A DNA stretch of 64,000 bases from the NCBI RefSeq assembly GCF_001625215.2, contig NC_030387.2, forward strand, positions 496,001 to 560,000. The letters are read 5' to 3'. Origin of the DNA: Daucus carota subsp. sativus (taxonomy: Eukaryota; Streptophyta; Magnoliopsida; Apiales; Apiaceae). Below are positions 12,030 through 64,000 of the stretch, in pieces. The position numbers and the translations under genes were made by a program. Within the stretch, counting starts at the first letter, position 1. Every line of letters begins with the position of its first letter. The notes below the pieces were generated by a model. That model was given only the letters and a program-made list of their open reading frames with translations, did no database searches and had not been told where the DNA came from.

Positions 12030-15398
<3,369 letters not shown>

Positions 15399-27515: not shown

Positions 27516-29639
27516 CTAAAAGACAGCAAGGGGTTTCAATGACAATCCCTTCTTTTCAAATTTTCTGAAAATTCTGCGTGCTTCCTCAAACTGGGATGCT
27601 TGAATTAGAGCAGAAATGTATGTATCGCATGTAAAAGAGTCGGGGGAACATTTATTTTCTTCCATTGATAGGAACAATGCTTTCGCTTCATCGAATCTAT
27701 TTGATCTGCACAATGCCTTGATAAAAGCACAGTAGGTAAAATTGTCGGGACATAAATCCAATGTCAACATGCTAATGAGAAGTTTCTGTGCCTTCTGAAG
27801 CTTATTCATCCTACAGAAACTTTGGATAAGGGCATTGAAAGAGAATATATCAGGCTTTATACCATCAGCTTGCATCTTACGTAACAATGTCATAGACTTA
27901 GAAACATCCCCTTTCACACAAAATGACCGGATCAAGATATTATAAGTAATAGAATTTGGTGTCACGCCCCATTCAACCATCTCTGAAAAACAATCAAATG
28001 CATCCTCAGTCTGGTAAGTCTGACAAAGACCATCAATCACTGAATTAAAAGTAAAAGCGTCTGGCTTAAGACCTTGCTGTAAAAGCATCTTCAGTAATTC
28101 CCTGGCTTTACTTACATCACCAGCCTTACAATGCCCACTAATTAGGGTGTTGAAAGTAACAAGATTTGGAGCAACGCCTTTTTCACTCATATCTCGGAAG
28201 TACCGGGACCCTTTGTCCATCATATTCGTTTTGCAGAAGCAATCAATAAGCATATTATAAGAGTACACATTCGCTACAAACCCATATTCTAGCATCTGAT
28301 TTAGATAACGATTTCCTAATTCTACTTTTCCACCCTTGTACAAGGCCTCAAGGAGTGCAAGATAGGCATTAAATCCCAGCTTTATATTCCTGTTGACAAA
28401 CCTATCTAAGATATCGCAGGTCTCTTTGAGATCCAACCCCTTAATCAGACAAGTAACTACCGTGCTAAATGTTGAGCTGTCAGGACAATAGCCTCTTGAC
28501 TCTGATTTTTTCAAAAACATAGCAGCTTCCACTGACAGAGAACTGCTAGAAAGACAAAGCAAAATAGCTTCACAGGCTGCATCAGGCAATTTAGCCTCTC
28601 TCTCTAGAAAATAAGACAGCAACTGAAATGCCTTACGAGGGGATAGACTACGGAATGCCCCGTTGATTAATGACCTATAGGTAGCGTCATTTGGTTTTAC
28701 ATTCCTCTTCTTCATTTTGTCTAAGATCCCAAAGGCTTCATCTATCTTTTTTGCATTACAGTATCCATCAATTAAAATTGTATATGTAAAAACATTTGGA
28801 GAATATCCTGACCCCTCCATTTGTTTTACTAACCGAATGGCTTCATCAACCACCCCGGCTTTGCACACCCCATGGATCAGAATATTGTACGTAAATCTAT
28901 CTGGTCTACAATTATCCACCTGCATCTGCTGAAATTTCAAATATGCCAAGTCAAGTGAATTCGACTTCACCAATGCATCAATCACTGCATTATACAACCT
29001 AGTACTCAAACAAATCCCTAAATACGAAACCTGCTCAAAAACCTGACCACAATACTTGGCCAACCCTAACCTCCCCCAACTACCTATCAAAATACAAACT
29101 AAACTCTCCGTAAAACAAAACCCAGAATTCTTAACATCTTCAATCAATTCCCTGGACAGCAAAACAGGCCCTTTTCTATACAGCACATTACCTAAAACCC
29201 CTCGAATCGACTGATTCTTTTCCAACAAAGGGAACTTACTCGAAACCCATATATAAAACCTCAAAGAATGTAAAGGGCTATCTTGATTTTGCACAACACT
29301 AATAACAGCTTGAGGATTCAATGTAATTCTTTGAGCTTTGAGCTCGTGATTTAGCAACAAAAACCAGTCTTTCCTAGACAATATTCGACACATATAAGCA
29401 TGATCAATGGGCTTAATCTTGAACTTAGAATTCTTACCAGTATATGGAGTAATAGACACATTAGATACATGATTTGGAATGGGGGGAATGTTCTTACCAG
29501 AGTTTTGATTGGAGAAGGGGGCTAAAGGTGCAATCTTTGATGGGTTTTGAGCAGTTTTATGAGACTGATGGGAGAATTTGTGTATTGTTGCAGATAAAGA
29601 TGAAGAAGCTTTTGAAGTTAAAGAAGAGAAGCCTCTCAT
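27516..29639 (-). CDS. PPR40: P-class pentatricopeptide repeat protein, PPR40-like, mitochondrial
   Basis: An intronless frame of 707 residues. The N-terminus is Ser/Arg/Lys-rich and acid-poor, as for a mitochondrial presequence. From about residue 210 onward, canonical 35-residue PPR motifs (for example TYNILIHGVCKAGVVDEAIRL type) run almost to the C-terminus, about 12 to 14 repeats. No E, DYW or SMR domain is present, so it is a P-class RNA-binding protein for organellar transcripts. Overall pattern and the neighbouring AAE7 gene match Arabidopsis At3g16890 (PPR40), reported to link to mitochondrial complex III; this orthology is inferred from memory. The chosen start is the first Met of the frame, followed directly by the presequence-like segment. 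Confidence 0.9.
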   Translation of the reverse strand: MRGFSSLTSKASSSLSATIHKFSHQSHKTAQNPSKIAPLAPFSNQNSGKNIPPIPNHVSNVSITPYTGKNSKFKIKPIDHAYMCRILSRKDWFLLLNHELKAQRITLNPQAVISVVQNQDSPLHSLRFYIWVSSKFPLLEKNQSIRGVLGNVLYRKGPVLLSRELIEDVKNSGFCFTESLVCILIGSWGRLGLAKYCGQVFEQVSYLGICLSTRLYNAVIDALVKSNSLDLAYLKFQQMQVDNCRPDRFTYNILIHGVCKAGVVDEAIRLVKQMEGSGYSPNVFTYTILIDGYCNAKKIDEAFGILDKMKKRNVKPNDATYRSLINGAFRSLSPRKAFQLLSYFLEREAKLPDAACEAILLCLSSSSLSVEAAMFLKKSESRGYCPDSSTFSTVVTCLIKGLDLKETCDILDRFVNRNIKLGFNAYLALLEALYKGGKVELGNRYLNQMLEYGFVANVYSYNMLIDCFCKTNMMDKGSRYFRDMSEKGVAPNLVTFNTLISGHCKAGDVSKARELLKMLLQQGLKPDAFTFNSVIDGLCQTYQTEDAFDCFSEMVEWGVTPNSITYNILIRSFCVKGDVSKSMTLLRKMQADGIKPDIFSFNALIQSFCRMNKLQKAQKLLISMLTLDLCPDNFTYCAFIKALCRSNRFDEAKALFLSMEENKCSPDSFTCDTYISALIQASQFEEARRIFRKFEKKGLSLKPLAVF

Positions 29640-31490
29640 GTCCTTGGAAGAAGAAGAGAGTGATGCTTAAGCTCAGTCTTGAAGCAGCTTTAGGGAATTT
29701 CGTGTTTCAAACCTTTTTGTTCCATTCCCAATTTTTCCCTTTCCTTTTACAATTTTATGAAAAGATAAAATAATTCAAATACAAGTACATGTGAAAATCT
29801 CTCATTTAAAAAATATAAATTCGCTTATATAGTTTTTACTATGAGGATTTACAGGTGATTTATCGAAATGTAATGAGAAAATTTCTTTATAAAAACTAAT
29901 CAGATTCTTTTTAATAATCAAATTGTTTTTAAAACACCCAATATAATATTTATAATTAATGATTTTTCAGAAATTAATATTAGTATTTAAATGATTTGAA
30001 TACGATATCTACATATGCACCCTCTTTATTTTTTAGAATTAATCCGGTTTCAGATCATTCTTAAGACAAAAAAAAAAAAGAATAATCCGAGTGTTGGCCC
30101 TTGGAGTCATGATATGACATTTAAAGTCGCGATCGCCGAAAAAGTCCTAACCACACCAAAACGTTATTTCGGGCATTTTGAAGTGACAGTGAGACATTTT
30201 TTGCAGAAAGTGATAGTTGAGAATTGAGATATTATGTATTGAAATTGTGATTCCGGAGCCTTTTCTCTTAATCCCGGCCTCGCTTTCTCGAGATATTTTT
30301 TTATAATTTCAGACTGTGCGGAAGCAGGGGGTGCAATGTAGTTATTTGATAAGATGCCTTAAAGAATCATATGCATTGATTTTGGTTGTAATTTCTTACA
30401 CTTTGGTAGAATAATGAGGGAAAATGATTTATAGTCTTGAATGCTCTCTTTCGGGTTATTTGATATTTACATGTGCATTGTCCAGATGTTTATAAAGCTG
30501 TTTGCTGCGAATATCGTAAGCAGAAGGGACTCTAGAATTGATAGTAGCTCAGTTGGGTACACATGCAAGTTGTAAATTTGTCAAATATAGATTTTGCTTC
30601 TAGGTCATTTCCTAATTTTCAAATTATATATACATATTACAGAAATTGAAAAGATTGCTCACTGTCTCGTTTATTTAGCATCAGACCAAATGACCAATGA
30701 GCATGGAATAAAATATAGGAGTACAATTTATATCATGTTCTCTCTTTGCAGGGAAGTGCTTTCAGTGATGCAATGATATCGGCAAGGACGCAGAAGAAAG
30801 TCTGCTTAACACCTTCTTCAAAGTTTTTCCGCGTTAATTTTAACAGCCAGCATAGACTCTGCAATCACACAGTACAAGAAGGATAAGATAAAATCTTTGG
30901 CTGTAAGTTTATATCTTACATACGGAGTACTACTTAAAACATACTTAAATTTTTGTATGCTCTAGTTTTAAGAAATGCAAGACTGCCGTTTGCCTGTTTC
31001 TGGTATTTGTCTGCTATGAAAAGTTGTCGTGTTCAATTCGTTCTCCTAGTGTGAATATCAGAAAATGTAGAGCCATGCGGCACTATTTTGAGTTGGACCG
31101 GTATCTTATCTCTGATTTTAGATGAACAAGCGACCTAAAAGTAGTCACTTGCTTACTTTAAGTTTCTAGCTAGAAAAAAACTTACTGTAATATGTATCGT
31201 TACTTTTTGAACTAAAAACTAAAGACACGAACAGAAAACCAATAACATAAAGCAACTTTTCAATAACTCCAAATCAATCAATACCTTGAGTTGAGGTACA
31301 TTTCATTGTCTGTAAATATTTGGCAAAATACAACTATGTTTAAATTTGCAGTTACAATTGCTGCCAAGATTAACTCTTGGAACTAATTTGCAGAAAAGAA
31401 AACTTCAGAGCTAATGCACTTTCCTTGTTTCCAGTGTATATCAGTTGTCACATTTATATTATGTTATTTGCTTTTGAAACTTAAGAGGTC
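29640..31490. other. Intergenic between PPR start and BXL 3' end
   Basis: Mostly AT-rich. A somewhat GC-richer patch is at about 30090-30310. No recognisable gene or element. Confidence 0.5.
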
Positions 31491-45153: not shown

Positions 45154-48100
45154 TCATAACTTACTCTTCATCAATGGTCCCATTGCCTTTGCCTTGTCCC
45201 GCAGCAGGTGCTTCTGTACTTTACCGGTAGCAGTCTTTGGCAATGGCCCGAAAACAACTGATTTTGGAACCCAGTATCTAGGCAATGTAGCCCGACAGAA
45301 CTTCATAATATCTTCTGCCATTCTTTGTTCATCGGATTTTTCAATATTTTCCTTTAAGTTCACAAATGCACAGGGAGATTCTCCCCATTGTTCGTCTGAC
45401 CTGGCCACCACTGCAGCCTCCAGAATTGCGGGGTGCTGGTATAGAAAATTTTCAACCTCCACGCTACTGATATTTTCACCTCCTGATATGATGATATCCT
45501 TTGATCTATCTTTAATTTCTATATACCCGTCTGGATGCTTCACAGCAAGATCACCTGAGTGATACCAACCATTGGCAAAAGCCTCTGCATTTGCTTTAGG
45601 ATTCCTCAGGTAACCCTTCATTACAATGTTACCTCGAAATACTATCTCACCAATTGTGGTTCCATCTGCTGGGACAGGTTTCATGTCCTGTGTGTTGACA
45701 ACTTCTAAACCCTCCAACGCAACGTATCGTACACCCTGCCTTGCATTTAATCGAGCTTGGTTTTCTGGGGGTAGTGTGTCCCATTCAGGTTTCCATGCAC
45801 ATACTGTGGATGGCCCATATGTTTCAGAGAGACCGTAAGTGTGTGTGACACGAAAGCCATGTCGGGTCATTGCCATTAGAACAGAAGCGGGTGGAGAAGC
45901 ACCAGCAGTCATTACATTTACAATGTGAGGGAGGGGAAGTATTGTCTCGTTTTGTGGGGCATTTACTATAGTATTGAGCACCACAGGAGCAGCACAGAAA
46001 TGGGTTACACCGTGATTGGCAATTGCAGAATAAACAGCCTTTGCTGTCACCTACATAAAACCAGTGGAGAATGTACTTTAACAAAGCTACTTGTACGAGT
46101 TAAACTGAGTTACTGAGCTGTGTATGCGTATTAAGAATAAGTAATAAAGCCAGGTTCGACCATAAAAAGGCCGAACATGTCAGACTTCACTTGAGCATGA
46201 TGCTTGATTACTGTCAGGTGGAGAGATGTCAAAGCTCAACAAATTTAATTATATCAATTAAAAAAATGATAGACGGAAAATCCACACAAGCAATACATAT
46301 TATTAAAAAGAATCTGATATGAATATATATGGCAAAGCTATTTATAATAAAATCAAACCTAGTGTAGAATTAATATATACTGGCGAGCGTAGGTCATATA
46401 TTCCATTCATGAAGTAAAAGTGTCAAGAGATTACCTGTCGGAGGCATATACTTGTCCCACAAAGAGCAGCAAGTGCCCAAGTAAAACACCAACCATTGCA
46501 ATGGAACATGGGTAAAGTCCACAGGTATATGGCTCCTTCATTCATCCCCCATATAACTGCATTACTTAAAGCCATGAGATATGCCCCTCGATGATGCAAA
46601 ACTACCCCTTTGGGGCTGGCTGTTGTACCAGAAGTGTAACCAAGGGCAATGCTATGCCACTCGTCCTGCGGTGGCTTCCAGGGATATTCTGGATCACCAC
46701 TTTCTAGAAATTTCTCGTATTCAATTGCCCCTCTTCCTAAAGCATATTGCAGTACCTTTGGATCACAGCTTTCATCAGCAATGACAATCATAATCGGAGG
46801 ATTATAGTTGCTTTTACTTTCCTTTGCCAAAATTTGTAAAGCTTCGTCTGCCAGCATAAAGAACTCTTGGTCCACCATTATAACTGCAGAAGATGAATGC
46901 CCTAAGAGAAATGAAATAGTTGAAGCATTTAGACGAATGTTTATAGCATTTATAACTGCCCCGGCCATTGGAACACCAAAATGAGCTTCGTATAAGGCTG
47001 GGACATTTGGTGCAATCACTGCTACCTGAAAATACAATTTAGAGAAATATAATAGTAAGGTAGTTACTGCAAGACTTTAAGCAACTGTAAGAGGAAAACG
47101 GATATAGGAGAACAGAGTAAATGTATATTATGCATATTCTTAACTTTAATGAGGACCAGTGAAACTATGCATTCAAGTGTGGAAAAATTATGAGTCATAC
47201 AAAGTACATATATACTTTCATTTAGTTGTAGCGGCGGGACATAGTTGTGGGGAAATACTTATTCTTTTTAAGTGGATATATCCAAGTCAAGAAAAGGGAA
47301 AATAAAGCAGTGTCTCAAAATGTAAAATTTTATCACACAATGAGGTAAGACAATTTACAAATAAAGCATGAGGACCTTATAGACCAATAGAGGTTGTATA
47401 GCACTTTGTTTTAAGTTTGTATAGGGGTTTTTCTACTGTTATGTTTGTAGTGGGTTTACGTATTATAAGAAAATTTATCAATTTTATCATGTAATCGGGT
47501 AAAAAATGGTAACTTCTGGCATATTTATAGAGTGCGCTACTGCCATTGTGAAGCAAGACATCACCTCTATAAAATAGAATCCCAAGAATGTAATTTAAAT
47601 AAGTGTACAACTCCATGAATTTCTTATAACTCCTTCATATGAAAGAAATATCAAACTTGAAGTGGTAAGAGGCCTTATATTTTACAATAATTGTTGCAAT
47701 CAGGTTTGAGGGCCAAATGCAATGCATCAAGTGAATAGCAGGGGCATGGTGATAATACCCTTTTTGTGATAAATGTTGAGCAGAAATAAAGCTATGCTCA
47801 TCTTGGGTTCCCTGCTAATGGGTGCAAGTACATTTTTGTTTCTTTCGAATAGTATACTCAGAACTGCAAATAGATGAAGTTTGAGGACTGATTTCAGACT
47901 AATTTGTATTCAACTTGGAATTATAATTTGTTACTCAAGATTGTTTAATAGTCGTATATATTGAGACAGATTACCACATGTTGTGTACAACTTTTAACAT
48001 ATGTTTTTCATCTAAAACTAACTATTATTAAGCACCGTCACATCCTGAAACATACATATATGGGGTCATGTTTTACCTAACTCTAACAACCAGTTGCAAT

Positions 48101-48958: not shown

Positions 48959-51068
48959 TTTGTTGAGAAAGAGAAATAGCGGCAAAGCAGATCGGAGAGA
49001 GAGAGGGGGGAGAGAGAGAGAGACGGTGAGTAGTTCCCTACCTGAAGTAAAGGGCTGTTCTAGTCTTACTATATACATACACGGGGGCATGATCTATTTG
49101 CTTTAATTAATCGTATTGAATTGATTTTTCAAATATCAATCTTATCTGCAACCGGACGAGCAGAAACTGAACTGAAGATTTAAATCGTATCAAAAATCGT
49201 AAAAATCGCACTAAATAAAACCGCACTGAATAAAAATTGAACTAAAACAAATCCACACTGATAATTTAGTTTTGATTTTGATTTCTAAAAATTTTAAAAC
49301 TACATACAAACTGAAGCAAACCGCAACAATATTTATATATTTATTTTATATATTTAAAGTAAATCACTGTTTTACTCACTAATAGTTCGGTAGTTTTCTA
49401 GTGACTGATATAATTATGAAGATATTACTATTTTTGACATATTTATTGAAATTTTTTTATACATACAAGCATCCGAGGGTTTATCGAATACTTCACGGTT
49501 TAAAACCAAACCGCGCCAAACCGAAACCGCTCATTTTAAAAATCGAACCGCGCCATGATATTTGGTTCGGTTTCAGATTTTAATTTTAGAAACCATATTT
49601 TATGGTTCCGGTTGCGGCATATAATTAATAGTCACGAGACTTGAACTAATGAAACCAGTTTTAGGAAAAAAATGAAAATAACTATTAGAGCCGATACACT
49701 AAATATTGACCACTATTCTAGCCAATTTTTTAAACCAACCTTTTTGAGATGTTTCATTTAATTTTTTATATTTCAACACGTATCAAATATATTAAAATTT
49801 TATAATATAAAAATCAACTACTACATTTACTTTTTTCACTGATGTTACTTTATACATTAAATATAATCAGATCTCACCACTATCTTAACTTCTTTTTTTT
49901 TCCACTCATATTTGATTTATTTCTTAACCTCCATGTTCAACCCAAATATAAACATTTGGATGTGAAATTGAGGGCCGACATTTTATTCAAAAGAAATCCT
50001 CAACAAGTAAAAGCATAATTTATTTTGAATTAAGGAAAAAAATATAAATATTCAAATAGATATCAAACTGATTTATTAGAGTAGAATTTAATTTTCTACC
50101 TGATCTAACATTTAACCTATGCATGATTAAACAAATGACAAGATTTTGATAATAATATCATGCTAACAAATTATCCTTTTTACTTTATTATATATAAGAA
50201 GGGTAGCGGTCTCCGGCATACATATGTCAGGACCTCTTAACTAACCCACATTTTGAAAAATGGCCCCAGACCTCACAAATGTGGAAGTAATGCCCAGAAT
50301 AAGAATAACAGAGTTATAGAGTTGGAAATAATGGCTCATAATACCAGTTAATAACGTCTGATAATCTAACGTCTTTAATTTTGAATTGAAAAACACTAGA
50401 TCATATAGCGTTTTGGTGTTTTAACCCTACCAAAACGCTACATGATGTAGCGTTTGGTTTTTTAAACCTAACAGAACGCCAGACGATGTAGCGTTTTGTA
50501 TAAATATACAAAACCCTACACAATGTAGCATCAATAAATAGTATTTGGGCCATTCTGGATCCTGATATTTAGGATATTAATCATCAATATAGTGATAGTG
50601 AGGGCCAACACCCCTCTCGTGCTCGTTGGATTATAACCTATGTCCCGCTTAAAAAGCGCTAGATGAGGTCTGTACAACGCTTTTTAACCGATACACGAGG
50701 TTATACAACCCCATCCAACGGGTTAAAAAGCGTTGGATGTATTAAACTTTGGTTATAATCTTGACCGTTGGATATTAATCCAACGATCAGTGAATGGTAG
50801 GTCGTTTAACAGGCCTGACATACATATGCCAGGGACCTGGACCTATATAACAATACGATATTAGTCACCCGTGATGTATTAGTTTTTCTTATATGGTAAA
50901 ATACTATATATAAATTAACAACCAAATTTAGTACTATAAATATACAATATCAAATAAATATTTAAATATTGCCTAAAAAAATAATAAATAAAAATTTAAA
51001 TAAAGAAAGCAACAAAATAATAGAAAATGGAATGAATACAAGGCATGGACAGGCGGACAGCCTCATGT
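48959..51068. other. Intergenic between AAE7 start and the large MULE
   Basis: A GA/CT-rich AAE7 leader (about 48990-49025) is followed by degenerate sequence with AACCGC-type words (about 49190-49620) that resemble the hAT-like element at 970-1730. Next is an AT-rich relic (about 49700-49980) and the MULE-related complex at 50208-50845. No gene seen. Confidence 0.5.
50208..50845. mobile_element. Small non-autonomous element complex with MULE-like palindromes
   Basis: The outer ends form an inverted repeat around CCGGCATACATATGTCAGG (left, about 50214) and CCTGACATACATATGCCAGG (right, about 50813). Inside, a TGGCCCC...GGGCCA-bounded segment (50261-50606) contains palindromes such as AAAACGCTACATGATGTAGC (about 50442). 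These share the ACGCTA/TAGCGT core with the large MULE. A second group of AAAAAGCG/CGCTTTTT words lies at 50650-50735. No target duplication resolved; it may be two nested elements. Confidence 0.6.
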
Positions 51069-51077
51069 TCTGGTGGG
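51069..51077. repeat. Left 9-bp target-site duplication of the MULE
   Basis: TCTGGTGGG, identical to the copy at 59630-59638. A 9-bp duplication is the hallmark of Mutator superfamily insertion. Confidence 0.9.
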
Positions 51078-51177
51078 GGGTTTCGGCCCCAAATAACCAG
51101 ATTTTAGGTGAAAATGCCCCAAATAACAAAATACCCGAATATTGGCCCTCACTGACCATTAGAGACGTTTGCGAAGT
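51078..51177 (+). repeat. Left terminal inverted repeat of the MULE
   Basis: Pairs with 59532-59629 in inverse orientation. Conserved blocks are GGCCC-AAATAACC, ATGCCC-AAATAAC and CATTAGAGACG. Confidence 0.85.
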
Positions 51178-51530
51178 AGCGTCTTAGTTTTTTAAACCAA
51201 AACGCTACATCGTGTAGCGTCTCCTGCAATTTTTTTTAAAAAGTTAGAAAACGCTACGTTAAATAGCGTTTGAAGGAAAGAACAAATTTTTAAATACTTT
51301 TAAACGCTACTGTAAGTAGCGTCTTCTTTTTAATGGAAAATATTTTGCTTAATCTTAACAGTAAAGTTTGAAAAAATAAAACGCTAGATCAAATTACGTT
51401 TAAGTTTGTAAAACGCTAACAAGTATAGCGTTTTAAGCTATTAAATTTCTTTAACTGTACAACGCTACTTAGAAAAGCGTTTTGTCTGTAAGAATTAAAC
51501 CAAACGCTACTAGGAGTAGCGTTTTGTATT
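51162..51530. repeat. Subterminal palindrome array, left end of the MULE
   Basis: About seven short inverted repeats of the form AAAACGCTA-(6 to 10 nt)-TAGCGTTTT, for example near 51203, 51250, 51303, 51381, 51411, 51461 and 51502. Arms are 8-10 bp and spacers differ in sequence. Candidate transposase-binding sites. Confidence 0.85.
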
Positions 51531-51789
51531 ATTCCTTCTGCCAAAGGCAGTAGCCAGAACCTTCTGCCATGCCAACCTTAAAAACCAATTCACACCGCAA
51601 ACAACTTAAAAACCAAAACTTTTAAACTACCAAATTCAATGTAAATTGCATAAACAATCTCAACTAATTCATAACAAAATAAAATTCGATTTATATCATA
51701 AATCATTCATACAATAGCGTCCAAATTCAAACAACCATATCAAATTGTACTTGAACCATAGTACTACAACAATAAAAACAACTAGAGAA

Positions 51790-54175
51790 TCAACTATCTC
51801 TCGATGAAGTCCCTCCATGCTTTCCCCGGCTCTGGAAATCCATCTCGTTCTTGTACCTCGTTGATTTTCTTCGGCCCTTCTTCTTCTCCATATCGGGGTC
51901 ATGCACAACTCTCGGGAAAGCAAGCTCGGTAGGATATCGAGGATCACCCTTGTTTGGAATTGGCTCAAAGATACCATTATAAATCTTCGATTGGTTCTCT
52001 AACTTATACCAATCACCAACAAACCCATGGAAGTCCATCCTCACATGTGAACAACATGCAATTACATGGGAGCAAGGGATTCTATAAGCTTGAAATTTTC
52101 CACAAGTACAACTAGACTCCATAAGACGAACCGTGTGTGTGTTTCCCCCTTTCAACCCATCCTTCCTTGTAACTACTTGGAATAACCAAGTCCCCCGATC
52201 AAATATCTTCACACTATGACCCGTGGAACGTCTTACAGCACGGTTCAAGAGATGGGATGCATATTTGGTGAAAATATTACCTTTCGATACTTGTGTTGCA
52301 ATCTCAAGGCGACGTTGATCAAAGTACTCAACCGTCTTATGGAATAGTACTCGCACCAATGAAGTAAGCGGGAGCCTCCGAGCATCGACAATTGCATTGT
52401 TCCAACTCTCAGCATGGTTGGTAGTCATGATGCCAAAACGATGATGCTCGTAGTCATGTGCTAGTGACCAGTTCCTTACTGGTTTGTCCTCAAACCATGC
52501 AAGTGCTCGAGGCTCTAGTGCCAACAACTCACCCCATAGTAGTTCAAATTTCTTAGGCTGGACCTGATATGCCAACTCAACCAATCTATCCTTCAATCCA
52601 GCTTTCTTGAATTTGGTGGCAAAGTTTGTGGCAAAATGTCTCACACAGTACCGATGATGATTAAGTGGCTCACACCATCCCTCCTTCTGCATAGCTGCCA
52701 TGATCCCTAAATGTTTATCAGAAATGATACATATCCCGTGCCTCCGACCAACCACCAAGCTCCTCAACCTATCCATGAACCACTCCCAGCTAGAGTTGTT
52801 CTCCGACTCCACTATAGCACACGCCAATGGTAGAATGTGACTAAAACCATCTACAGCTGTTGCACTCAGAAGAACACCCGGATATGGTCCATACAAATGA
52901 GTCCCGTCTATCAGTATGACGGGTCTGCAATACTCGAAGCCATCAATGCATGGCTTAAAAGCCCAGAACAATCTCCTAAATGTCACTTCCTGTTCCAAAT
53001 AAATAACAAACATTACATTAGAAAATGAATAACGGAGTCCAAATACTTAATGAAAATGAACTAAATTACACGGTGATAGAAGATACCTCTAGGTGCTCTG
53101 CATCATCCTCCTTAAAGCACCACTCCACCTTCGTGCCCACATTGAAGGACTGAAGAGTTTCCATCAAATGTGGCAAGTCCTCATATGATCCTTCCCACGA
53201 GCCATGAATATCTTCCAATGCAATCTTCTTTGCATTCCTAATCTTCTTTCGGCCCGGCTCATATCCAAACTTATCTTTAGCAGTAGCTAACAACACCTTC
53301 TCCTTAATTGTCGGATCAGCAACAATTTGAGATTTAATGACTCCAGCAATCTCCGAGGCTGTCAAGTTGGGATGATCTCGTGTGATGGTAGTGCTCAAGC
53401 AAGTATGTGGTCCTACACTCTCCATGATTTGAAATTTACCATGTGAAGTCCTCTTTCTAGCTTTCAACTTCCAAATACAACCATCATTTCTATACTTGCA
53501 AGCAACATACCAACTACTCGGATCTGATCGTATCACTCCAATCTCTAAGTGATTCTGAATGTGGTATTGCTTCACCACATGCATCAAATCCTCTTTCGTG
53601 CTAAATAGCCTTCCCTCCTTCAACTCCAACGGGACCTCATTATTTTCAACCTCAACATCGTCGAATGAGGTCATCCTCTCTAAATGGGAAGTATCCACAG
53701 ACATATAGCTATCACCCACATCCTGATCATGTCTAAAATGACTACCCCCCGAATCACGCCCACTACTCTTCTCCCCCACACTCGAACTACTCCTTACCAA
53801 ATTTCCATCACAAGACAATTTCTCTACATAAAGTTCAACAAAAAATGGCATCCCTTTTGACACCACAACACCAAACATTAATTCTACATCATCATCATCC
53901 TCAATAGGTATAATCCCGAATTTCAAATTATCGGGATTTTTAGACCTATAAAATATCCTCAACCTACTACTACTATCAATCTTCAACTTGGAATGTAACA
54001 AAGCACATAAATTGGCATAATTCATAGATAAATCGAGCCTAACATGCTTTGAAACAGGTTTATCATAAATAAAACCTTCTAATTGAGATTCGATAATATT
54101 ACCGTCATGGTATATCCATCCAACAACCGTATTCCCAGCTTTCGAACCCGAGCCCGAACCTGAACCGGAAGCCAT
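51790..54175 (-). CDS. MuDR-type Mutator-like transposase
   Basis: Two exons, 53087-54175 and 51790-52989, total 2,289 nt and encode 762 residues without any stop or frameshift. Start chosen at the MASGSG Met because upstream codons in the open frame have no family match. Order: a low-complexity Ser/Gly start and PB1-like N-terminal region (about 15-120), a MuDR zinc-type DNA-binding domain (about 190-260), and the MULE transposase core. The core shows DGTHL (Asp391), SDKHLG (Asp454) and NHAESWN (Glu557), the DDE triad in the expected spacing. A SWIM zinc finger CxC...CxH follows (C657, C659, C669, H671). It should cut and join the element's own ends and those of related non-autonomous copies. 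Confidence 0.95.
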
Positions 54176-54299
54176 GATTGTATATGAATGTTTGAAATAT
54201 GAATTAGAGCAGATTTTGGGTGAATTAGGGCACAAAAATATTTGGGTGAAATGGCTGTGTATGGCAGTGTGTGTATGGCAGTGTGTATTGGTTCTGGGA

Positions 54300-54590
54300 T
54301 AACAACTAAAAAAAAAGAAAACGCTAGACGCAATAGCGTCTAGCTATTTAAACGTACACGCTAGACGCAATAGCGTCTGTGTAATATTTAAAATATATAT
54401 TAAAACCAAACGCTACTGGAAGTAGCGTTTTAATCTATTTATTTTTTTAAATGTTTAAAATCAAAACGCTAGACGCATTAGCGTCTAGCTGATGTATAAA
54501 ATTTATTTTAAAACAAAACGCTACTAGCTGTAGCGTTTTCATCTAATTATTTTTTTTTTAAAATGTTTAAAACGCTGATTTTTAATTTCT
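54300..54590. repeat. Internal palindrome array upstream of the transposase start
   Basis: Five inverted repeats (AAAACGCTAGACGCAATAGC type and AAACGCTACTGGAAGTAGCG type) and one half-site lie 130-400 bp upstream of the transposase start codon. They have the same ACGCTA core as the arrays inside both ends. This could be a transposase-bound promoter region, or the former end of a shorter ancestral element. Confidence 0.85.
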
Positions 54591-54731
54591 TTTAATTTAA
54601 AAACACATTTGTTTGAATTAAAAATGATTTGTAAAATGTATATTGAATTTGTAAAATGTATATTAAATTAAAAATGTATATTAAAAATGATTTGTAAAAA
54701 TATCAAATCTTTTTTGATGGAAATTTGAATT

Positions 54732-55318
54732 AAACCCTAACCGTCGACCAATTTATATACAGTATGAATTAATATTTCTAAAACCCAAACCTAAACCCTG
54801 AATGTTAAAGGTTGTAAATTTATTTATTCCGCCGGCGTCTCGGCTTCAGGGCCTTCGGCCCTTCAGCCTCGCTTAATTAGGCTCGAGGGAGTAGGGCCTA
54901 CCGGCCCTACACCCTCAATCCTAAACCCTAACCGTCGGCAAATTTATATACAGTATGAATTAATATTTCTAAAACCCAAACCTAAACCCTGAATGTTAAA
55001 GGTTGTAAATTTATTTATTCCGCCGGCGTCTCGGCTTCAGGGCCTTCGGCCCTTCAGCCTCGCTTAATTAGGGTTTAGGCTCGAGGGAGTAGGGCCTACC
55101 GGCCCTACACCCTCAATCCTAAACCCTAACCGTCGGCCAATTTATATACAGTATGAATTAATCTTTCTAAAACCCAAACCTAAACCCTGAATGTTAAAGG
55201 TTGTAAATTTATTTATTCCGCCGGCGTCTCGGCTTCAGGGCCTTCGGCCCTTCAGCCTCGCTTAATTAGGGTTTAGGCTCGAGGGAGTAGGGCCTACCGG
55301 CCCTACACCCTCGATCCT
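54732..55318. repeat. Three-copy ~195-bp tandem repeat with telobox-like motif
   Basis: Units start at 54732, 54923 and 55121 (periods 191 and 198 bp); a fourth start motif is at 55319. Each begins AAACCCTAACCGTCG (telobox AAACCCTAA), contains TTATATACAGTATGAATTAA and the GC-rich self-complementary words GGGCCTTCGGCCC and TAGGGCCTACCGGCCCTA. Copies 2 and 3 are nearly identical; copy 1 lacks one GTTTA-type insert. It lies between the PMD 3' end and the transposase promoter. Confidence 0.92.
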
Positions 55319-55477
55319 AAACCCTAACCGTCGGCCAATTTAATTATTAAAACTTTAACGCTATACTAAAACAGAAACATACGACATGAAATTAAAATAT
55401 TTACAAGATCCGTGCTATCATATATCACAAGTTCAGCATCCTATAACTAGAATGTCATCAAAAACCTACAAATATCA

Positions 55478-57934
55478 TCATCCCCTATGTGAACCAGTAC
55501 CACAGTCAGGAACCTTCTTAGCCCTCTTTGACCGGCGAACAAAAAAGACATCAAAAAGGGGTACAATAGGCTGCGTAGCAGGCTGACTAGGCTGACTAGG
55601 CTGCGTAGACTGTGTAGACTGTGATGAGCTGCCCAAGTCAAAAGGGGGTACCTCTGGTGTACCATGCCAAGGTCGAATCCTATGCTGACGCTGCACAACA
55701 GGAGGAGGCTGCTCTGTACTGGTATCTGGCATCTGAGAAGTCTGCTGCTCAGGTACTGGCTGTGAAGGCAAACTTAGGCCTAGAGAAAAACTAGGCCACC
55801 AGTCACCGGCGGTAGTAGTAGCAGCGGCAGCAGCAGCAGGGGGAGTAGAAGCCTCGGCTACAGTAGCAGTAGCTGTGGCAGCAGCAGCAGCATGGGGAGT
55901 AGAAGCCTCGGCTACAGTAGCAGTAGCTGTGGCAGTAGCAGCAGCAGCAGAAGCATCAGCAACAGTAGCTGTAGCAGCAGTAGCAGAAGACTCTGGGCCT
56001 CGATCCTCGCCTGTACCTAAATGATCCGCATGATCAGCATCATCATCCGGCTCATCAACTAACCGTCCACTGCCTCGGCCTCCATCACCACGAGCACGGC
56101 CTCCTCTGCCACGAGCACGGCCTCTCTCGGCACCACCACGGCCTCTCCTGCCACCACCACGGCCTCCTCTACCACCTGCATCCTCCCCTCCCCCGTCCTG
56201 TCTAGCATCCTGCTCCTCAACTTGACGTGGATCAAACCTGTATGCATTCCGATCTCGGAGATGGTGCAGACTCTGAGTGGCTAGTTGGGACATATCCGGG
56301 AGGACGTCTGCTGTCCTGGCTGCTATAGTCTCTAGCACAACTCCCTGAAATACAACGAATACAAATGCAATATCAACTACTAGAACCCATCAAATAAAGC
56401 ATGACGACTAATACAACTAATACCCCAACTACAGATAAGGAATACACACGACACATATCACAGAAAGTACAGATATAATAGTCAAAAATACTTACCAGGT
56501 GGGTATGCAGTGCACCCAACTGACTAATGAACCTCACAGTCCGAGGCAAGTACCAATCCATGTACTCTGGGACTGTAGCATGACCATCAATCACGTCATC
56601 AATCCAAATATGCTCCAGACGATGCTGCCAGTGTGTCATACTGGGCTGATGTACGACTGCATAATCCAAGACCTTCTGGCCCCTCAGCGTCATACCGTGA
56701 TGCTCGTGGGAGTAGTGTGGCTGATCCGGAATACGCTGTATCATGCCAAACTGTCTAGCAACTCTGTCCGGCTGATGTGGCTCGACTATGTAAACACATA
56801 TCATGGGGCCGCGAAAGCGCCAGAGATGACGGCCGGCTAAACAATAGTCTGGCAGTGTATCAAGAATCCCAGCATAAGGCTCCCAAATAAACTCATGTGG
56901 AGCAAGCGCATCCAATGCCGCCCGAGACGTAGTCACAGTGCTTCCATCACTCTCAACGAATGAATGTCCAACAAGCCACCTATAGACATCATAGGAATAC
57001 AAAAAAACACATTAGTCAATTTAAAAAGACAATTCACAACTTGAAATGTACAAACCAGTAAAAACACAGCTACTATGTACCTGGCTCCATGTGGTCCTGG
57101 AAGCTGATGCCCCCAAAAAGCAACATCCTCTAATGGAACAGTGGTCCGAACAGGGGCAAGAGTGGGCAACCTCTCCCATGCCCATAGCTGCAGTAAGAGA
57201 AGGCATCCAGCTACCTCCTTAATACTCGCTTTGCAACCATTGCAAAGCTCCCTGTATAGACGAGCTAGAACAGCTGGACCCCATGCATAGCCTCCGAGCG
57301 CCTCCAGGTCACGAACAAAATGAACCCACGAGGAGTGTATAAGTCCACCAGAATGGTCGGTGAACAGTGACCCCCCAAACAACTGTAGCAAGTAACACCT
57401 GGCGTGAAGCCTGATCTCCTCAACGCCTGCATCATCACGTAATCTCGCTGGAGTGAGACCCTCTACCCATGTGAGCCGTAGCCTCGAGTTATTGAAAGCC
57501 TCGGGTGGAGGAATCTGTCCAAATACCTCACCAACGATGGTCTCCCATCTCTGTCCAGGTGGAGGGCCTACAGGACACATAACGGGCTCTCCGTCAATGG
57601 GTAACCCGAGCAAGACACCAACATCCTGCAGTGTAATAGTACACTCTCCCATCGGCAGGTGGAATGAATGTGTCTCTGGTCGCCATCTCTCTACCAGAGC
57701 ACCAAGCAAACTCCAATCAAGCTGAAGAGTGGATACCCGAGCTACCCCATAAAAACCGGCTGCCTGCAGAATGGGGATCAATCGAACATCAATGTTCAAA
57801 TCAGACTGGTTGGCATCGCGACGCCTGAAATACTGCAAGGGCGCAGCACCAGTTCTCCAGACAGAACGAGACCTATGAGTGGCCTGTAAGTGAAGAAGGC
57901 TAGGATCACGAGGTCCCTGGTCTCTAATAATAGC
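55478..57934 (-). CDS. Plant mobile domain (PMD, aminotransferase-like) protein carried by the MULE, 5' end unresolved
   Basis: Three exons join in frame: 57081-57934, 56496-56979, 55478-56344 (about 734 codons plus any first exon). The PMD domain spans most of exons one and two, with family-typical stretches such as GPRDPSLLHLQATHRS, FHLPMGECTITLQDVGVLLGLPIDG and WLVGHSFVESDGS. The last exon is low complexity: an RG/GRGG-rich segment, then Ala/Thr-rich repeats, then a KRAKK basic patch. The domain is shared by the host MAIN/MAIL1 silencing-related proteins and by transposons. At 57935 there is an in-frame stop and an AG acceptor-like site, so a first exon with the start codon is expected further right; I could not identify it. 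Coding looks otherwise intact. Confidence 0.85.
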
Positions 57935-58358
57935 CTATGAACAAAAACAAGGAAATACAAAGTCAGCACATCATACTAACCTGAGAGAGAAACTAATTAA
58001 AACGCTTATTATTAAAACAACTAGTTAATATTAAAACAACTAAGCAACTAAGCAACTAAACACTTAATATTAACACAACTAAGCAACTAGTTAATCTTGA
58101 AACTAATTAAAACACTTAATATTAAAACAACTAAGCAACTAAGCAACTAAAATATTAAAACACTTAATATTCAAATAAATAACTTGGAATTTTAAACAGT
58201 ACTTCTCCTGAATAGTTTCTTAAAATAACTATAGTTTTCAGTATATTCATTTTTTTTACTGGTTATAATGCACTGGTAGGGTTAAGTTCATAATGAACGT
58301 AGTATTTGTGTTTCTTAATGCTAAAATTTGGATATCATGTATCTCTTTGAGTTTCCAG
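57935..58358. other. MULE interior between PMD and RBR fragment
   Basis: AT-rich, with many copies of an AAACAACTAAGCAACTA-type word (about 58010-58170). It may hold the 5' exon and promoter of the PMD gene; none is certain. Confidence 0.4.
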
Positions 58359-58892
58359 ATTGTAAAGCTAGCAGCTGTTCGAATGATATTTTTGTCGATT
58401 GGTCAGCAGCTCGCCGGAATGGGGTATTTCTCAGGTCACTGATTCTCATTTCTCTTCAATATTTTGAGTAAACACTAACACTTCTAATGATATTTGAAAC
58501 ATAAAACAGGAAAAGATCATGTTGATATAATAACATTTTACAATGAAATATTTGTCCCGACCGTTAAGCCTCTACTTATGGAACTTGCGCTTGCTGGAAT
58601 TGTTAAAAAGAACAACCATACATCAGAAGCTAGCAATAACAGCGACAAAGGTACAATTTCCTCTACTCCATAGTGTTTCTCAGAAATATAACCGGACATC
58701 GTTGTATCTTTGCTATATCCTAACTCTTGTTTATTCTAATATCCTGATTTACCATATAGTTGTCTTTCCTATTATTCATTTTTATAGTTTTAAAGATGTA
58801 TTTCTAGGCCATTGCCCTGGATCACCCAAAGTATCTACAATTCCCAGTCTCCCAGATATGTCTCCCAAGAAAGTTTCTGCAGCACACAATGT
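58359..58892 (+). pseudogene. RBR: Captured fragment of a retinoblastoma-related (RBR) gene, exons with introns
   Basis: Three exon-like pieces on the plus strand match plant RBR in order. The piece at about 58359-58423 reads FVDWSAARRNG. The piece at about 58507-58651 reads [13 protein letters not shown] then VKPLL. The piece at about 58809-58892 reads CPGSPKVS then [16 protein letters not shown]. Sequence between the pieces looks like the original introns (AG before pieces two and three, GT after piece two). Similarity stops abruptly after AAHNV. Only the pocket-domain middle part of RBR is present, so it cannot make a working RBR. Retained introns mean capture from genomic DNA, as in Pack-MULEs. 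The joins of the first two pieces are not perfectly in phase. Confidence 0.88.
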
Positions 58893-59420
58893 AAACGCCT
58901 TCAAATCAGTCTGTTCTTTGTATACATGAATTTAACCACTCATCAATTCTGATCACTTCCTTTGAAACTGCAGCTTGGCATAATTTCATTCTTTATAACA
59001 ATATGTGTGTGTATGTTATAAATTATTTTTAAACAGAAGTAGTAAATACATTTAAAACCAAGCATGTCAAAGGGCATTGTATGATGGTTCACATGTTTAT
59101 TGCAACCTACAACAGATTCCATTCCAATTTCCAATCTCTACAAATCAACAAGTATCAAAGGGCTATATAAATTTAAGCACAGTTATATACATATTGGTTC
59201 AGACATTTTATCAAACATGTAACATACGAATGCAAATGACTATTTTACATATAAACACAGTACATATATAGTGCCGTATATACATACATTAAAATCCATT
59301 GTTGTGCTTGAAATCTTTGGTATGAAGCCTCCACAAACAAATCAAGCAAAACTACTCTCCTACAAGTCGTATGCAGCAACTCTGATATGCCTCTGTATGA
59401 CTCTGTATAACTGGTTAGCC
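58893..59420. other. MULE interior right of the RBR fragment
   Basis: AT-rich with TATA/ACATA runs. No protein similarity recognised; possibly other captured non-coding DNA. Confidence 0.4.
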
Positions 59421-59427
59421 GTTATGT

Positions 59428-59535
59428 TTAAAAGCGTTTATATATAAGGTTAAAACGCTACTGCGTGTCGCGTTCTCATATAATAAAAGACGCTACACGA
59501 CGTAGCGTCCCAGTCTTATTCCAAAACGCTATTTA
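59428..59535. repeat. Subterminal palindrome group, right end of the MULE
   Basis: At least two palindromes (AAAACGCTACTGCGTGTCGC type near 59453 and GACGCTACACGACGTAGCGT near 59489) and a half-site AAAACGCTATT near 59522. Fewer than at the left end. Confidence 0.85.
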
Positions 59536-59629
59536 ACCTGCGTCTCTAATGGTTATTTTGGGCCATTTTATCAAATATTGTTAATTTGGGCATAAACACT
59601 TAAATTGTGGTTATTTTGGGCCTTTTTTC
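59532..59629 (-). repeat. Right terminal inverted repeat of the MULE
   Basis: Complement of the left repeat (51078-51177) over about 100 bp, with the same block order and almost no length differences in the outer 50 bp. Confidence 0.85.
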
Positions 59630-59638
59630 TCTGGTGGG
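59630..59638. repeat. Right 9-bp target-site duplication of the MULE
   Basis: TCTGGTGGG, identical to 51069-51077. Confidence 0.9.
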
Positions 59639-59937
59639 AAATTATTCATCGTAATCAAGAGTACTTGCTGCAAATAATTCCCAGTTGTTGACCAGTACCA
59701 CGAGGTCACGACTTACTACAGTCTACGACTCTACGGAACACAAGTGTGTCATATGTTATGACCTTTCTCGTGTTTCAGACACCTCAACTCACATCACTTG
59801 CTTGCTCCTCCACTTAAACTACTTGTACTTTCCAATTAAGGTAAACATTACATACACATATTTGTGTGTATATTAGCTTCGGTGCTTGTTATCACAGTTT
59901 GATTAGTGTTTAGATTGAATCACCTGAGCTTCTCCCT
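59639..59937 (+). promoter_or_regulatory. Upstream/5' UTR region of the CAMTA gene, shortened by the MULE
   Basis: Only about 300 bp separate the MULE end from the CAMTA start codon. There is no strong TATA box. A CCAATTAAG-type word and a possible splice donor AAG/GTAAAC are near 59830-59845, so a 5' UTR intron is possible. Confidence 0.4.
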
Positions 59938-62900
59938 ATGGAAGCTTCTCGAACACTTGTCGGCTCCGAGATTCATGGCTTTCATACTATGGAAGGTAAT
60001 TTATATGCATATCGTTGAATTCACTAGTTTAATTTATACTCTCTCAGTGATTTTGTAGTCGGTGATGGCCTGGTGGAATTGTACGGAAAAATTTGTGAAT
60101 TTTTTTATATCATGTCTTGTTTCGTTTTTAGAAATCTGTCTAAAATTTAATTTCAGCTCTGGTGGAATTGAGATAGGAATTAAGTACTGATGAATGCTAG
60201 TGTATTACTAGTATCACGTATTAGTAAGCTATATCAAAAACTACTAACTTATATGTGCCATAAGTAATAATAAAGTTGTCTTTGACAATCATATAAAATT
60301 GATATTCAATTAGGATTTAAATTATTCAAAAAAATATGATGGTATTCGGTCATGATTTTGAAATATAAATTATGCTTAAAATTTTGGTGGTATTTAACGG
60401 GTATCATATAATATCTATTAAAATATGATGGTATTCAAAATTTGATGGATTTTTCCACGAGATAATAGATTTTGTGGGGATTGTCCAATGTATTTTATGT
60501 TTCTAGAAATCCCTCCGTAATTCCCGAGAATCGAGATTTTGAAAGGTTGTGCTTAAATCTTAAGGACTCTATATCAACTTTATGATGTTTTATCTTTATT
60601 TGAAATCCGATAGAGTTCGCATAAAATTAAAGTCACATAGAATCCATTGATTATTATCAGCCCATTAAAATCTGGATTGAATTAACTGTGTTGCTGAACA
60701 ATACAAGATTGGTGCCCTGATGGATATCTGTAATTGAAATAGTGTAAGCAGCTATATCTGTACATCAACGTGAATTTTAGCTTATCACATACTTGAACCA
60801 GCAATGACATTTGCTATTGTTGTTAGGGTTCAACCCAATATGGTAGTATGGGCTTGCATGATCCAATACATATATGTGGGTAATAATTGTATGTATAGAC
60901 AACTATTATAAATGGTATGTCTTGGTCACAACAAAAGGTAATTAGACACTTAAAAAGTAAGGCTTGTATAAGAAATATGGTAATTCTTGGTAGTTTGTGG
61001 TGGCTATATATACATAGTCATATTGTGTTTAATATGTATGCTCAAGATTCAGACTTAGATATCACCTGTGAAAGGATGCTTTAGTATTGCTCAGTTTCAC
61101 CGTTTGAGTATCCTAGTTTGATTGTTTGTATTATTAATAATTGTTTTGATTAATGACACAAGTTGTGACATGGGTTTTTCACGTTATATATTTTGTGTGT
61201 ATCTTGCATTAAAAGGTGAATGTCGTATTTTATTCTTAACATTTTCATATGTTTTCTAATGTTGAATGTGATACATTCAAGTTGCTTGTATTCAGCAGAA
61301 GAGCTAGAAATCAAGTTTCGGGTGCGCTAGGATAAACTTAATTTTGAATATTGGTCTTGATTCAATCATATGTATTTTTTTGCCCAGGCAATATTAATAT
61401 GAAAATATATTATGATTTTAGTAGGATTGTTTTTACAACTGAAATCTAAGTTTGAAGAACTAGATTTACTGTTAAAAGCAGTTATCCTTTTCTTTACATG
61501 CTTTGATGTATTCATATCTTTTCTATGGTTTAATTTATTAATCAGAGTGCGGCCATGCCGGGTTTTTCTTTATCTTCTCCAACTACTTTGTAATTAGTTT
61601 ATTAATATAGATGTCCGCAAGAAGATTTTTTTATATGTAAATCTAGTAAACTTCTAAATTACTGCATAATATATTTCTACTTTTACCTTTGAAGGCTGTA
61701 GGGTATAATAAAGAGGCTAAGCAAAACATAGTAGAAGTAGAAAAAAAATATAACACAAAGCCACACTAGCATGTGCAGGAGTAATTGAGACTTAGACTTT
61801 AATTACATATATAAGTATAACACTTGCTGAAAGGTTAGGGTGAGTGGTAGCACGAGTTGGTTCAAGTGTGGCTCCGCCTTACCTGCTGCAAAGGCTCTAT
61901 GTTGTTTAAGTGCAACTATGCAGATACCAAACTTGAAGGTTTAATATATGTTGGTCAGTTGGTCCTGATACCAGCAAGAGGTTCAAATCATAGTTTGGAA
62001 CTTAAACAAATTACAACAGGTTTCGAGGTTTAATATTGTGGTAATAGCATTTGGCTTACATGGTTTGTTTACTTGTTATTTAAAAACTAATATATTGATG
62101 GAAAGAATGAGGTGCTCTGGTTGCCAGTTTGATCATAGACTAAGAGAAGTATATTCTGCTTGCTCACAAACAAATAAATATTACAGTTATCAGTTTGCAT
62201 CCAAGAATTAATACTCCCTCCGTCTCAAATTAGTAGTCACTTGACTTTTTAGACATATTTTAAGGTGCAGAGAAAAGATAGTTTCTTAAATTAATTTTTG
62301 AATTTTCTTTTTTCGAGTAAAAGTTTGTTATTTATATCATTCTGAAGAAGAAAACTTAAAAGAAAGTATTGGATCTATGTTTTTTTGCACCTTAAAATAC
62401 GTGCATAAAGTCAAAGTGACTACTAATCTGTGACAGAGGGAGAACAATTTATTTTATTATGGTAGCCGTCAAAAGAAAAGAAAATACTTTTAAGTTATAG
62501 ATAAGTGTGCAGGTTGCTACTTTGTGCTAGTTATACTATTACTATGATGTATCTTTGTCAATAAATTCAAAAATATACAGTTCCATTTTAGTCATGCAAT
62601 ATTAGAGATTACTTGATCATATGAGGCATTGAAAGGGTGATAATCTGCTCCAGGACAACCACAGCCGGTGGTCGCGGAAAGTCAAAGATGCCTAAACATC
62701 CTAATTAATTGAATAAGGATGTCAACACCTATAACATTATATAGCTTGGCAAGTGCAGGAAGCCATTTTTATTTCATTTATTACCACCACACAGTGTTAA
62801 TTGGTTTCTTCTTATGAACAGAGCTGGATATTGGTCATGTAATGGAGGAAGCTAAGTCAAGATGGCTCCGGCCAAATGAGATTCATGCAATACTTTGTAA

Positions 62901-62947
62901 CCACAAGTATTTCACCATCTATGTTAAGCCTATAAACTTGCCTCCAG
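59938..62947 (+). CDS. CAMTA: Calmodulin-binding transcription activator (CAMTA5/6-like), first two coding exons, continues past the window
   Basis: Exon 1 is 59938-59995 (encodes a start MEASRTL and then EIHGFHTME) and exon 2 is 62822-62947 (LDIGHVMEEAKSRWLRPNEI, then HAILCNHKYFTI and NLPP). Junctions are in phase. This is the start of the CG-1 DNA-binding domain; the rest (CG-1 end, TIG, ankyrin repeats, IQ motifs) must lie right of 64000. The EIHGFHT and EEA-RWLRPNEIHAILCN pattern fits the short CAMTA5/CAMTA6 group lacking a long leader. It is a nuclear calcium/calmodulin-responsive regulator by family. Intron 1 is 2.8 kb and intron 2 holds a MULE-related element. Identification rests on about 60 residues only. 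Confidence 0.88.
59996..62821 (+). other. Intron 1 of the CAMTA gene
   Basis: 2.83 kb, AT-rich. Contains a Stowaway MITE (62214-62442). No additional exon needed; splicing exon 1 to exon 2 keeps frame. Confidence 0.65.
62214..62442. mobile_element. Stowaway-type MITE in CAMTA intron 1
   Basis: 229 bp. The left end is CTCCCTCCGTCTCAAATTAG and the complemented right end is CTCCCTCTGTCACAGATTAG. Further complementary blocks AAGTCAAAGTGACTACTAAT and AGTAGTCACTTGACTTTTT fold back on each other. TA precedes it; the right TA is mutated. Confidence 0.85.
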
Positions 62948-63503
62948 GTATAATTCTATATGTTTCAATGTATATACTCTCTTTGTGCCATTTATTTGTA
63001 AATACTGTTCTATTATTGCTAAATAAATATGAAGCTAATGTTTTCACAAAAGGTTGTGCATGCATTGAAGGTACATATGCAACAGCTCACAACTCATGGG
63101 TTGGACTGTCAATCTTTGAAACCTCAACCTGTCTGACCTTACCCTCCTGTGAAGCAGTCTGACCTTCTGCTAATCTGAAAGGATATTTGCTTGTAATATC
63201 ATTCAAAAAGTATTAATAGTCTATCAACCTGACTTGCTGCTGTTTGTTTTTTAAAAATACTAGCTTATAACCCGTGCATTTCAAAATTATATTTTAATTA
63301 AGACTGAAAATAAGAAATAGAATAGTTAGTTATGAAATTTATATTATATTTACAAAACCTACTTCTATTTGGTTTAAAACATGAAAAGAATCTCATATTA
63401 TATTTACACAACCTACTTCTATTTGAATCTTATATATAAATATCTTTTATTATTATGTAACTTAACCATTTATCAAACAATAAGATCTAAAGGTTCATAT
63501 TCA

Positions 63504-63592
63504 TTCTGTTGTACTATACCAAACAACCAAAGGGTATTGGCCCCTTTTATCGGTACTATACCAAACAGCCAAAGGGTATTGACCCCTTTTAT
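63504..63592. repeat. Two-copy ~45-bp tandem repeat
   Basis: Two adjacent copies containing TACTATACCAAACA then CCAAAGGGTATTG and CCCCTTTTATC, with three or so differences. It sits directly beside the left end of the following element. Confidence 0.85.
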
Positions 63593-64000
63593 CACAATTT
63601 CAAGCAATAATGCCTCAATTATCACATCCGAAAAATATGGCCCCAAATATCACTTTATAACGTTACATCATTCAGCGTTTATAATATTTTTTTGAAAAAA
63701 ACAGAATGCTATGTCGTGTAGCGTTTACCCTTGTTTTTTTAGCCCAAGCCCATAGAAAAACATCTATAAAACCCTAGAAGCCCTAACGGTAGATGATGTA
63801 ACGTTATGAAATGATGTTGCGTTATGAAATAATGTTACTTTATTTAACGTTTGAAGCCCAAGCCCATATAACATATGCCTTAAATGCTACGTTGTGTAGC
63901 GTTTTATTGTTGTAAACTTGACGCTACATAATGTGGTATCTAGGGCCATATTTTTAGAACGTGATATTTTGGCCATTTCAAATAATTGTGATATTCAGGG
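63584..64000. mobile_element. Non-autonomous MULE-like element with ACGCTA palindromes, right end at or past the window edge
   Basis: Left and complemented right ends align: both contain TATCACAATT, then AATATCAC or AATTATCAC, then AAAAATATGGCCC. The interior carries ACGCTA-type palindromes (near 63708, 63884, 63921) and several AACGTTA words (near 63658, 63801, 63815). It has no coding capacity. It shares the palindrome core with the 8.55-kb MULE but has different terminal sequence. The exact ends could not be fixed because the window stops here. Confidence 0.65.

Follow-up and report, generated by a model that had tools for sequence, protein, structure and literature searches.

The window, a 64,000-nucleotide stretch of Daucus carota subsp. 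sativus DNA (C7:496001-560000), contains a complete Mutator-like element (MULE) at 51078-59629 that carries its own transposase gene together with a broken copy of part of a gene for RBR, a cell-cycle regulator. The feature is probably a transduplicated, non-functional RBR mosaic, lying in a slot that would have been formed as filler during template-switch repair; from comparison of sequences across the genome (441 Mb in 11 contigs) this reading is given a probability of about 0.7. Taken singly, the RBR case is an ordinary transduplication of a broken gene fragment, and the more interesting observation is that the same slot varies in content throughout the family.

Structure of the host element

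The inverted ends of the element were detected by repeat search and alignment (Table 1). Left and right ends are 65% identical over about 210 bp, as expected of the long terminal inverted repeats (TIRs) of MULEs, and the flanking duplication, identical at all nine positions, falls within the 9 - 11 bp typical of MULE target sites (two copies, in the window and on C8, were examined for this). The TIR alignment scored 148, compared with 124 for the best among 194 other pieces of the window, and is weak evidence on score alone because an ACGCTAC-type repeat recurs in the window. However, alignment of a relative on C8 (11180022-11188495) begins exactly at the base equivalent to 51078, and this relative has a perfect 9/9-bp duplication of its own, which confirms the ends of the window element. 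In addition to the near-complete matches given in Table 1, the right TIR matches further genome places in part only.

The transposase gene has Pfam matches to MULE (E=5e-18), SWIM (2e-8) and DBD_Tnp_Mut (9e-7). With the MULE domain expected of such a transposase, the inverted ends and the 9/9 duplication, the proposal in an initial annotation of the window that the element encodes its own transposase is borne out. A second gene, for a plant mobile domain (PMD) protein, lies beyond a tandem array, several units of which are present in a C5 relative too. The 5' or first exon of the PMD gene was looked for in the window element and was not identified, and an ULP1 protease domain, as carried by KI-MULEs, had no match in the six element ORFs scanned. 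Both genes are on the minus strand and the RBR fragment is on the plus strand, in sense orientation, so that it is antisense to both.

Other features of the window were recorded. Both the ACGCTAC/GTAGCGT repeat and GGCCC-type ends are abundant in the stretches 50200-50860 and 63540-64000, which resemble other MULE termini. Short inverted repeats containing CTCCCTCCGTC occur at 62203-62453, which we take to be like a Stowaway-type miniature element. Downstream of the MULE, in 59640-62950, an exon near 62822-62948 matches the start of CG-1 (positions 1-34 of 116, E=0.0015, below the Pfam cut-off); it may belong to a CAMTA-type gene whose promoter region holds the MULE. Further ORFs encode a lectin/S-locus/PAN protein (11904-13352), a PPR protein (27519-29666) and pieces of an AMP-binding enzyme (45157-47076).

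Table 1. Features of the MULE in the window and of the RBR copy it contains.
Feature	Position	Strand	Description
Left target-site duplication	51069..51077		TCTGGTGGG, 9/9 identical to 59630-59638
Left terminal inverted repeat	51078..51287	+	Inverted match to right end; about 210 bp taken
MULE transposase gene	51790..54175	-	About 762 codons open, one GT-AG intron (53086-52990)
Tandem array	54731..55342		198-bp unit, 3.1 copies; between transposase and PMD genes
Plant mobile domain (PMD) gene	55481..57937	-	Several pieces; Pfam PMD 1.7e-53 and 3.6e-22
Variable slot	58223..59371		Between PMD 5' end and right terminus
RBR block 1	58223..58384	+	Intron and start of exon IVKLAAVRI (exon part 58359-58384); 98% to C2:55618958-55619119
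Join 1, filler	58385..58388		GATA, 4 nt; 316 bp of donor skipped
RBR block 2	58389..58893	+	505 bp, 98% to C2:55619436-55619940
RBR block 2, parts	58389-58424; 58503-58650; 58808-58893	+	End of exon FVDWSAARRNG, intron, exon, intron, exon; borders inferred from frame and GT/AG
Join 2, overlap	58890..58893		TGTA common to both donor sides; about 300 bp of donor skipped
RBR block 3	58894..58965	+	Intronic; 97% to C2:55620241-55620316 (aligned from 58890)
Rest of slot	58966..59371		406 bp; no match found elsewhere in genome (simple repeats and very common words skipped)
Right terminal inverted repeat	59419..59629	-	At least 16 other genome places, 73-79%, over almost the full stretch; right boundary shared
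Right target-site duplication	59630..59638		TCTGGTGGG, 9/9 identical to 51069-51077

The RBR copy and its donor

A whole-genome search with window positions 58180-59440 as query (simple repeats and very common words being skipped by the search) identified 58223-58965 as a 97-98% copy, introns included, of part of the RBR gene on C2 (C2:55618958-55620316). Two RBR genes are present in the genome (C1:51191649-51192191 and C2:55619091-55619615); the C2 locus encodes RBR and is the donor, and the C1 gene was ruled out as such by its identity of only about 70%. The fragment itself was found once. Transduplication implies that the donor of a captured host gene fragment lies elsewhere in the genome, as it does here, and the initial annotation, which had read the feature as a transduplication with introns, is supported in this by the alignment. 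Alignment of a host RBR gene through the introns had been set beforehand as one of two tests, and the C2 gene does align through them, with 13 mismatches in 735 bp, of which 6 are in 296 exon positions and 7 in the 439 others (the left-most 4 bases, which hold one more mismatch, are excluded). With plant substitution rates of 0.7-1.3e-8 per site per year, a divergence of 1.8% would place the copy at about 0.7-1.3 million years, an age that is only indicative.

The copy is a mosaic of three collinear donor blocks, in one orientation, with four exon pieces. The coding pieces agree almost to the base with the span 58359-58892 first given for them, and their order, with intron-like DNA between, was recognized correctly; the extent was not, since the copy spans 58223-58965 with four exon pieces in three blocks. 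The abrupt ends that had been noted are real, and homology to a C5 copy of the element stops at 58222, at the RBR border. Assignment to the "pocket-spacer region" has to be replaced. The spliced pieces match the last 20 positions of Pfam RB_B (125-144 of 144; E=0.001, below the gathering score), so that a profile search of the translated pieces also finds RBR, and the equivalent donor stretch, with exons joined by hand, has a match (E=8e-38) to RB_B positions 9-144. The donor translation has 187 residues; RB_B extends as far as residue 122, and what follows lies in the C-terminal region (Rb_C match weak, E=0.084). By these matches, the copied part runs from the end of pocket B into the start of the C-terminal region. 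Plant RBR queries matched the window at the pieces with E<=7e-12 (consensus) and <=5e-11 (Arabidopsis). A phmmer search of the spliced piece against PDB chains gave no match up to E=10, and none of the pattern matches obtained in a search for outside relatives (145 in genome contigs, 2 in viral contigs) was confirmed, as expected for a plant gene.

Several changes bear on coding capacity. The first "exon", 58359-58424, consists of two different donor exons fused out of frame around the 4-nt filler; at the inferred intron acceptor before 58503, the AG of the donor has become AT in the copy; and exons 58503-58650 and 58808-58893 have four silent changes and two residue changes. A last exon ending at a GT donor site after HN was considered and rejected, as the donor exon continues (VYVSPLR) and the copy jumps into the intron. 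As judged from these changes the copy cannot make an RBR domain and is a broken, non-functional fragment.

Different histories of core and termini in some copies

Near-full-length transposase copies number at least 20 in the genome, the window's included, and at least 14 of these are at >=97% (40 of 49 candidates were scored). In a sister element on C5 (41375152-41384174), the transposase stretch differs from that of the window by 14 mismatches in 2383 (0.6%), and 18 of the 26 core bins of 250 bp are 98-100% identical, the other eight being at 73-97%, some in repeat-rich stretches. The PMD part is nearly identical to the window's in the copies C2:11824, C1:23923 and C7:5465. The ends, in contrast, are diverged: at the right end the window element shows 78-80% identity to seven other copies, and at the left end 74-76% to two (74% for the C5 sister). 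Near-identical cores with diverged ends indicate that core and termini have separate histories in the C5 sister and, for the PMD part, in the other three copies. The contrast fails for C8:11188 and C1:19458, as their core is itself diverged from that of the window (most PMD bins at 71-90%).

These differences could also have arisen if a non-autonomous Pack-MULE took the RBR piece first and later gained the transposase and PMD core from a relative, by gene conversion or gap repair. Ends that differ by 20-26% from those of copies whose cores agree for the most part at 98-100%, chiefly the C5 sister, would be accounted for by such an order of events, as would the divergence between RBR copy and donor, which equals or exceeds that of most core segments against the C5 sister (1.8%, compared with 1.3% for the PMD 5' part and 0.6% for the transposase). 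An RBR capture clearly older than the shared core was at one stage considered, and was dropped once non-coding core segments were counted; dating of this kind cannot decide the order of core joining and RBR capture. However, neither a core-less element with the RBR piece nor a closer right-end relative is among the matches listed, and the stretch 58037-58222 is common to the window and the C5 sister right up to the RBR border. Prior capture by a Pack-MULE is a less likely account, though not a remote one.

A slot that varies from copy to copy

Homology of the C5 sister to the window element ends at 58222, where RBR begins, and resumes at the right TIR, of which the last 55 bp have no match in the sister. 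The corresponding slot was compared in 20 copies having a right TIR, the window's included (blastn, >=50 nt, E up to 1e-4). The PMD 5' border was seen in 14 of these, the other six being covered only about 1.5 kb inward. Near-full-length transposase adjoins 10 of the 14, and a partial copy adjoins C7:20578; the matches listed include none beside C7:5465, C9:27884 or C5:37442. Of the 14 copies with both borders, 12 have in the slot one or two segments, of 226-1118 bp, that are absent from the other 19 copies. Slots are inherited as well as replaced, as revealed by those that are shared: C8:25987 and C1:42284 have the same slot at 99.6%, that of C1:23923 is partly common to these two, and that of C1:19458 is partly common to C8:11188.

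Donors were searched in the genome for nine of the 14 slots, a match being taken as outside the family when absent from the family matches listed. For eight of the nine, the best non-family match spans 264-505 bp at 86-98% (window 97-98%; C7:5465 96%; C5:41375, C9:27884 and C2:11824 95%; C5:37442 89%; C3:31237 87%, plus 93% over 185 bp; C1:23923 86%), the loci matched by slots other than the window's being candidate donors. The C7:20578 slot lacked a good donor in the genome search, with 75% over 180 bp and, at up to 92%, matches of 51-70 bp only; for 58966-59371 of the window the search gave no source, the one overlapping ORF being without a Pfam match. Two donors are shown to be genes, the RBR gene on C2 and, on C1, a LysM gene (E=5e-7; the LysM copy in C7:5465, E=5e-8). 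The C1 LysM locus is at 88% and may itself be only paralogous to the true donor, and the remaining donors may be intergenic DNA or repeats.

Pieces of several loci occur in the slots of other copies (C5:41375, C9:27884). The slot of the C5 sister (C5:41375321-41376743) has pieces 92-95% identical to loci on C7, C8 and C6, including a 22-nt piece of the C8 locus directly followed by another piece of the same locus. The C7:5465 slot (C7:5465889-5466940) starts with a C5 locus, followed by pieces of 25 nt from a C1 locus and 22 nt from the C5 locus and by 15 nt of no assigned source; the C1 locus then resumes one base from its leaving point and is followed by two further C5-locus pieces.

Such arrangements are of consequence for the view that the RBR mosaic arose in two ordinary steps, i.e., by capture of a contiguous 1.36-kb piece of RBR and two later internal end-joining deletions. 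The two RBR skips could be deletions of this kind, as the blocks are collinear and in a single orientation, and filler and microhomology arise in end joining as well. Alternation between two chromosomes in C7:5465 is impossible by deletion alone and could be produced by template-switch copying, or perhaps by successive captures, which could mix two donors; this, and the presence of several loci in other slots, count against the two steps for the family and not for the RBR copy itself. For the RBR copy we consider two-step origin rather unlikely.

Proposed origin of the RBR mosaic

Template switching is favored by the three collinear blocks, which match the donor at 97-98% through introns, and by the 4-nt filler and 4-nt overlap at their joins (among random deletions simulated in the donor, an overlap of at least 4 nt was obtained in 2.2% of 20,000 trials), as well as by the slot segments private to single copies, their matches outside the family and the alternation in C7:5465; against it stand the 406 bp of slot lacking a source, the C7:20578 slot lacking a good donor, the slots shared between copies and the identification of only two donors as genes. 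In this proposal, DNA synthesis during repair, following excision or stalling of a fork, would change templates, take up as filler some pieces of RBR (with skips) together with further DNA, and then rejoin the MULE right terminus. Termination of repair tracts at the meeting point of the transposase and PMD core with the right terminus, or tolerance of inserts at this point alone, or both, would explain why the filler lies there. A broader proposal, which we hold as tentative, is that the family is modular: a recent transposase and PMD core would have been joined repeatedly to older, differing termini through template-switching repair, each joining leaving a scar of host DNA upstream of PMD, of which the RBR piece is one.

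Any transcription that started in the right terminus and read into the PMD gene would include RBR in antisense, and the RBR piece would be transcribed at most in this way, within the PMD gene leader. It is improbable that the capture was selected for function, whether as antisense or siRNA control of RBR or as a new PMD leader. The upstream position and antisense orientation to the PMD gene would suit such roles, but the fragment was found once, its exons are no less diverged than the rest, and it has the out-of-frame fusion and altered acceptor described above. The RBR piece is most likely without protein function. A degenerate RBR pseudogene or recent segmental duplication merely adjoining the MULE would explain the retained exon-intron order, but was rejected as scarcely credible, since the fragment is bounded by MULE sequence within inverted ends and a 9/9 duplication, has two internal RBR stretches missing, and is absent at the same border from the sister element.

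Relation to known captures by transposons

Transposon gene capture is well known, and a recurrent slot in a transposase-bearing MULE is what is new here. Pack-MULEs of rice, tomato and maize resemble the window element in having MULE termini, a 9 - 11 bp target-site duplication, a fragment of a host gene and a donor still in the genome. They differ in being defined as non-autonomous (PMC3310237), whereas the window element carries transposase and PMD genes; by the strict definition it has the host fragment between TIRs and departs in having a transposase gene. The packFinder pipeline (PMC8903248) classes as autonomous any element that matches a transposase, and captures such as that of RBR may thus be under-counted.

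Transduplications in grapevine, according to sections of PMC2528002, include cellulose synthase exons and introns in a Mutator family, the variable region of Hatvine-6 and the 5' region of Pifvine-3. The hAT and PIF cases are alike in that copies share transposase or TIRs and have regions that match host sequences, in which exons as well as introns are represented. The same sections describe a copy-variable region for hAT and, for Mutator, families carrying ULP and a single family with one further capture, whereas here the slot varies copy by copy beside a nearly constant core. MULEs with a plant mobile domain have also been described (PMC5418596), but as PMD-transposase fusions in grasses and Amborella; in the window element PMD is a separate gene beside a host-derived slot. 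KI-MULEs and other ULP-bearing MULEs likewise contain host-derived sequence, but the excerpts of PMC2528002 and PMC8277862 report a protease domain in many copies, unlike the broken fragment found once here.

The mechanism by which MULEs acquire gene fragments is called unresolved in passages of PMC3310237 and PMC8277862; the latter proposes gap filling, or fork stalling with template switching, for such captures in animals and calls the plant case worth exploring. Mutator TIRs contain promoters (PMC3310237). Further literature includes a review (PMC13317346) and PMC2613891. Among the best-ranked open-access matches for broader queries, a scope outside which most subscription papers fall, there was nothing on RBR in a MULE and no copy-by-copy variable slot in a transposase-bearing MULE; open-access matches on Mutator gene fragments in Daucus carota concern CACTA elements.

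Implications

That the fragment derives from RBR is probably incidental, although a small-RNA test is worthwhile on that account. Of wider use is a young transposase-bearing family with a largely constant core and differing inserts in one slot of many copies, as it offers a set of capture events within one genome for which donors and junctions can be read. If the modular origin is true, gene capture by MULEs would be a by-product of exchange between core and terminus, and the slot would supply new host sequences to the leader of a transposon gene.
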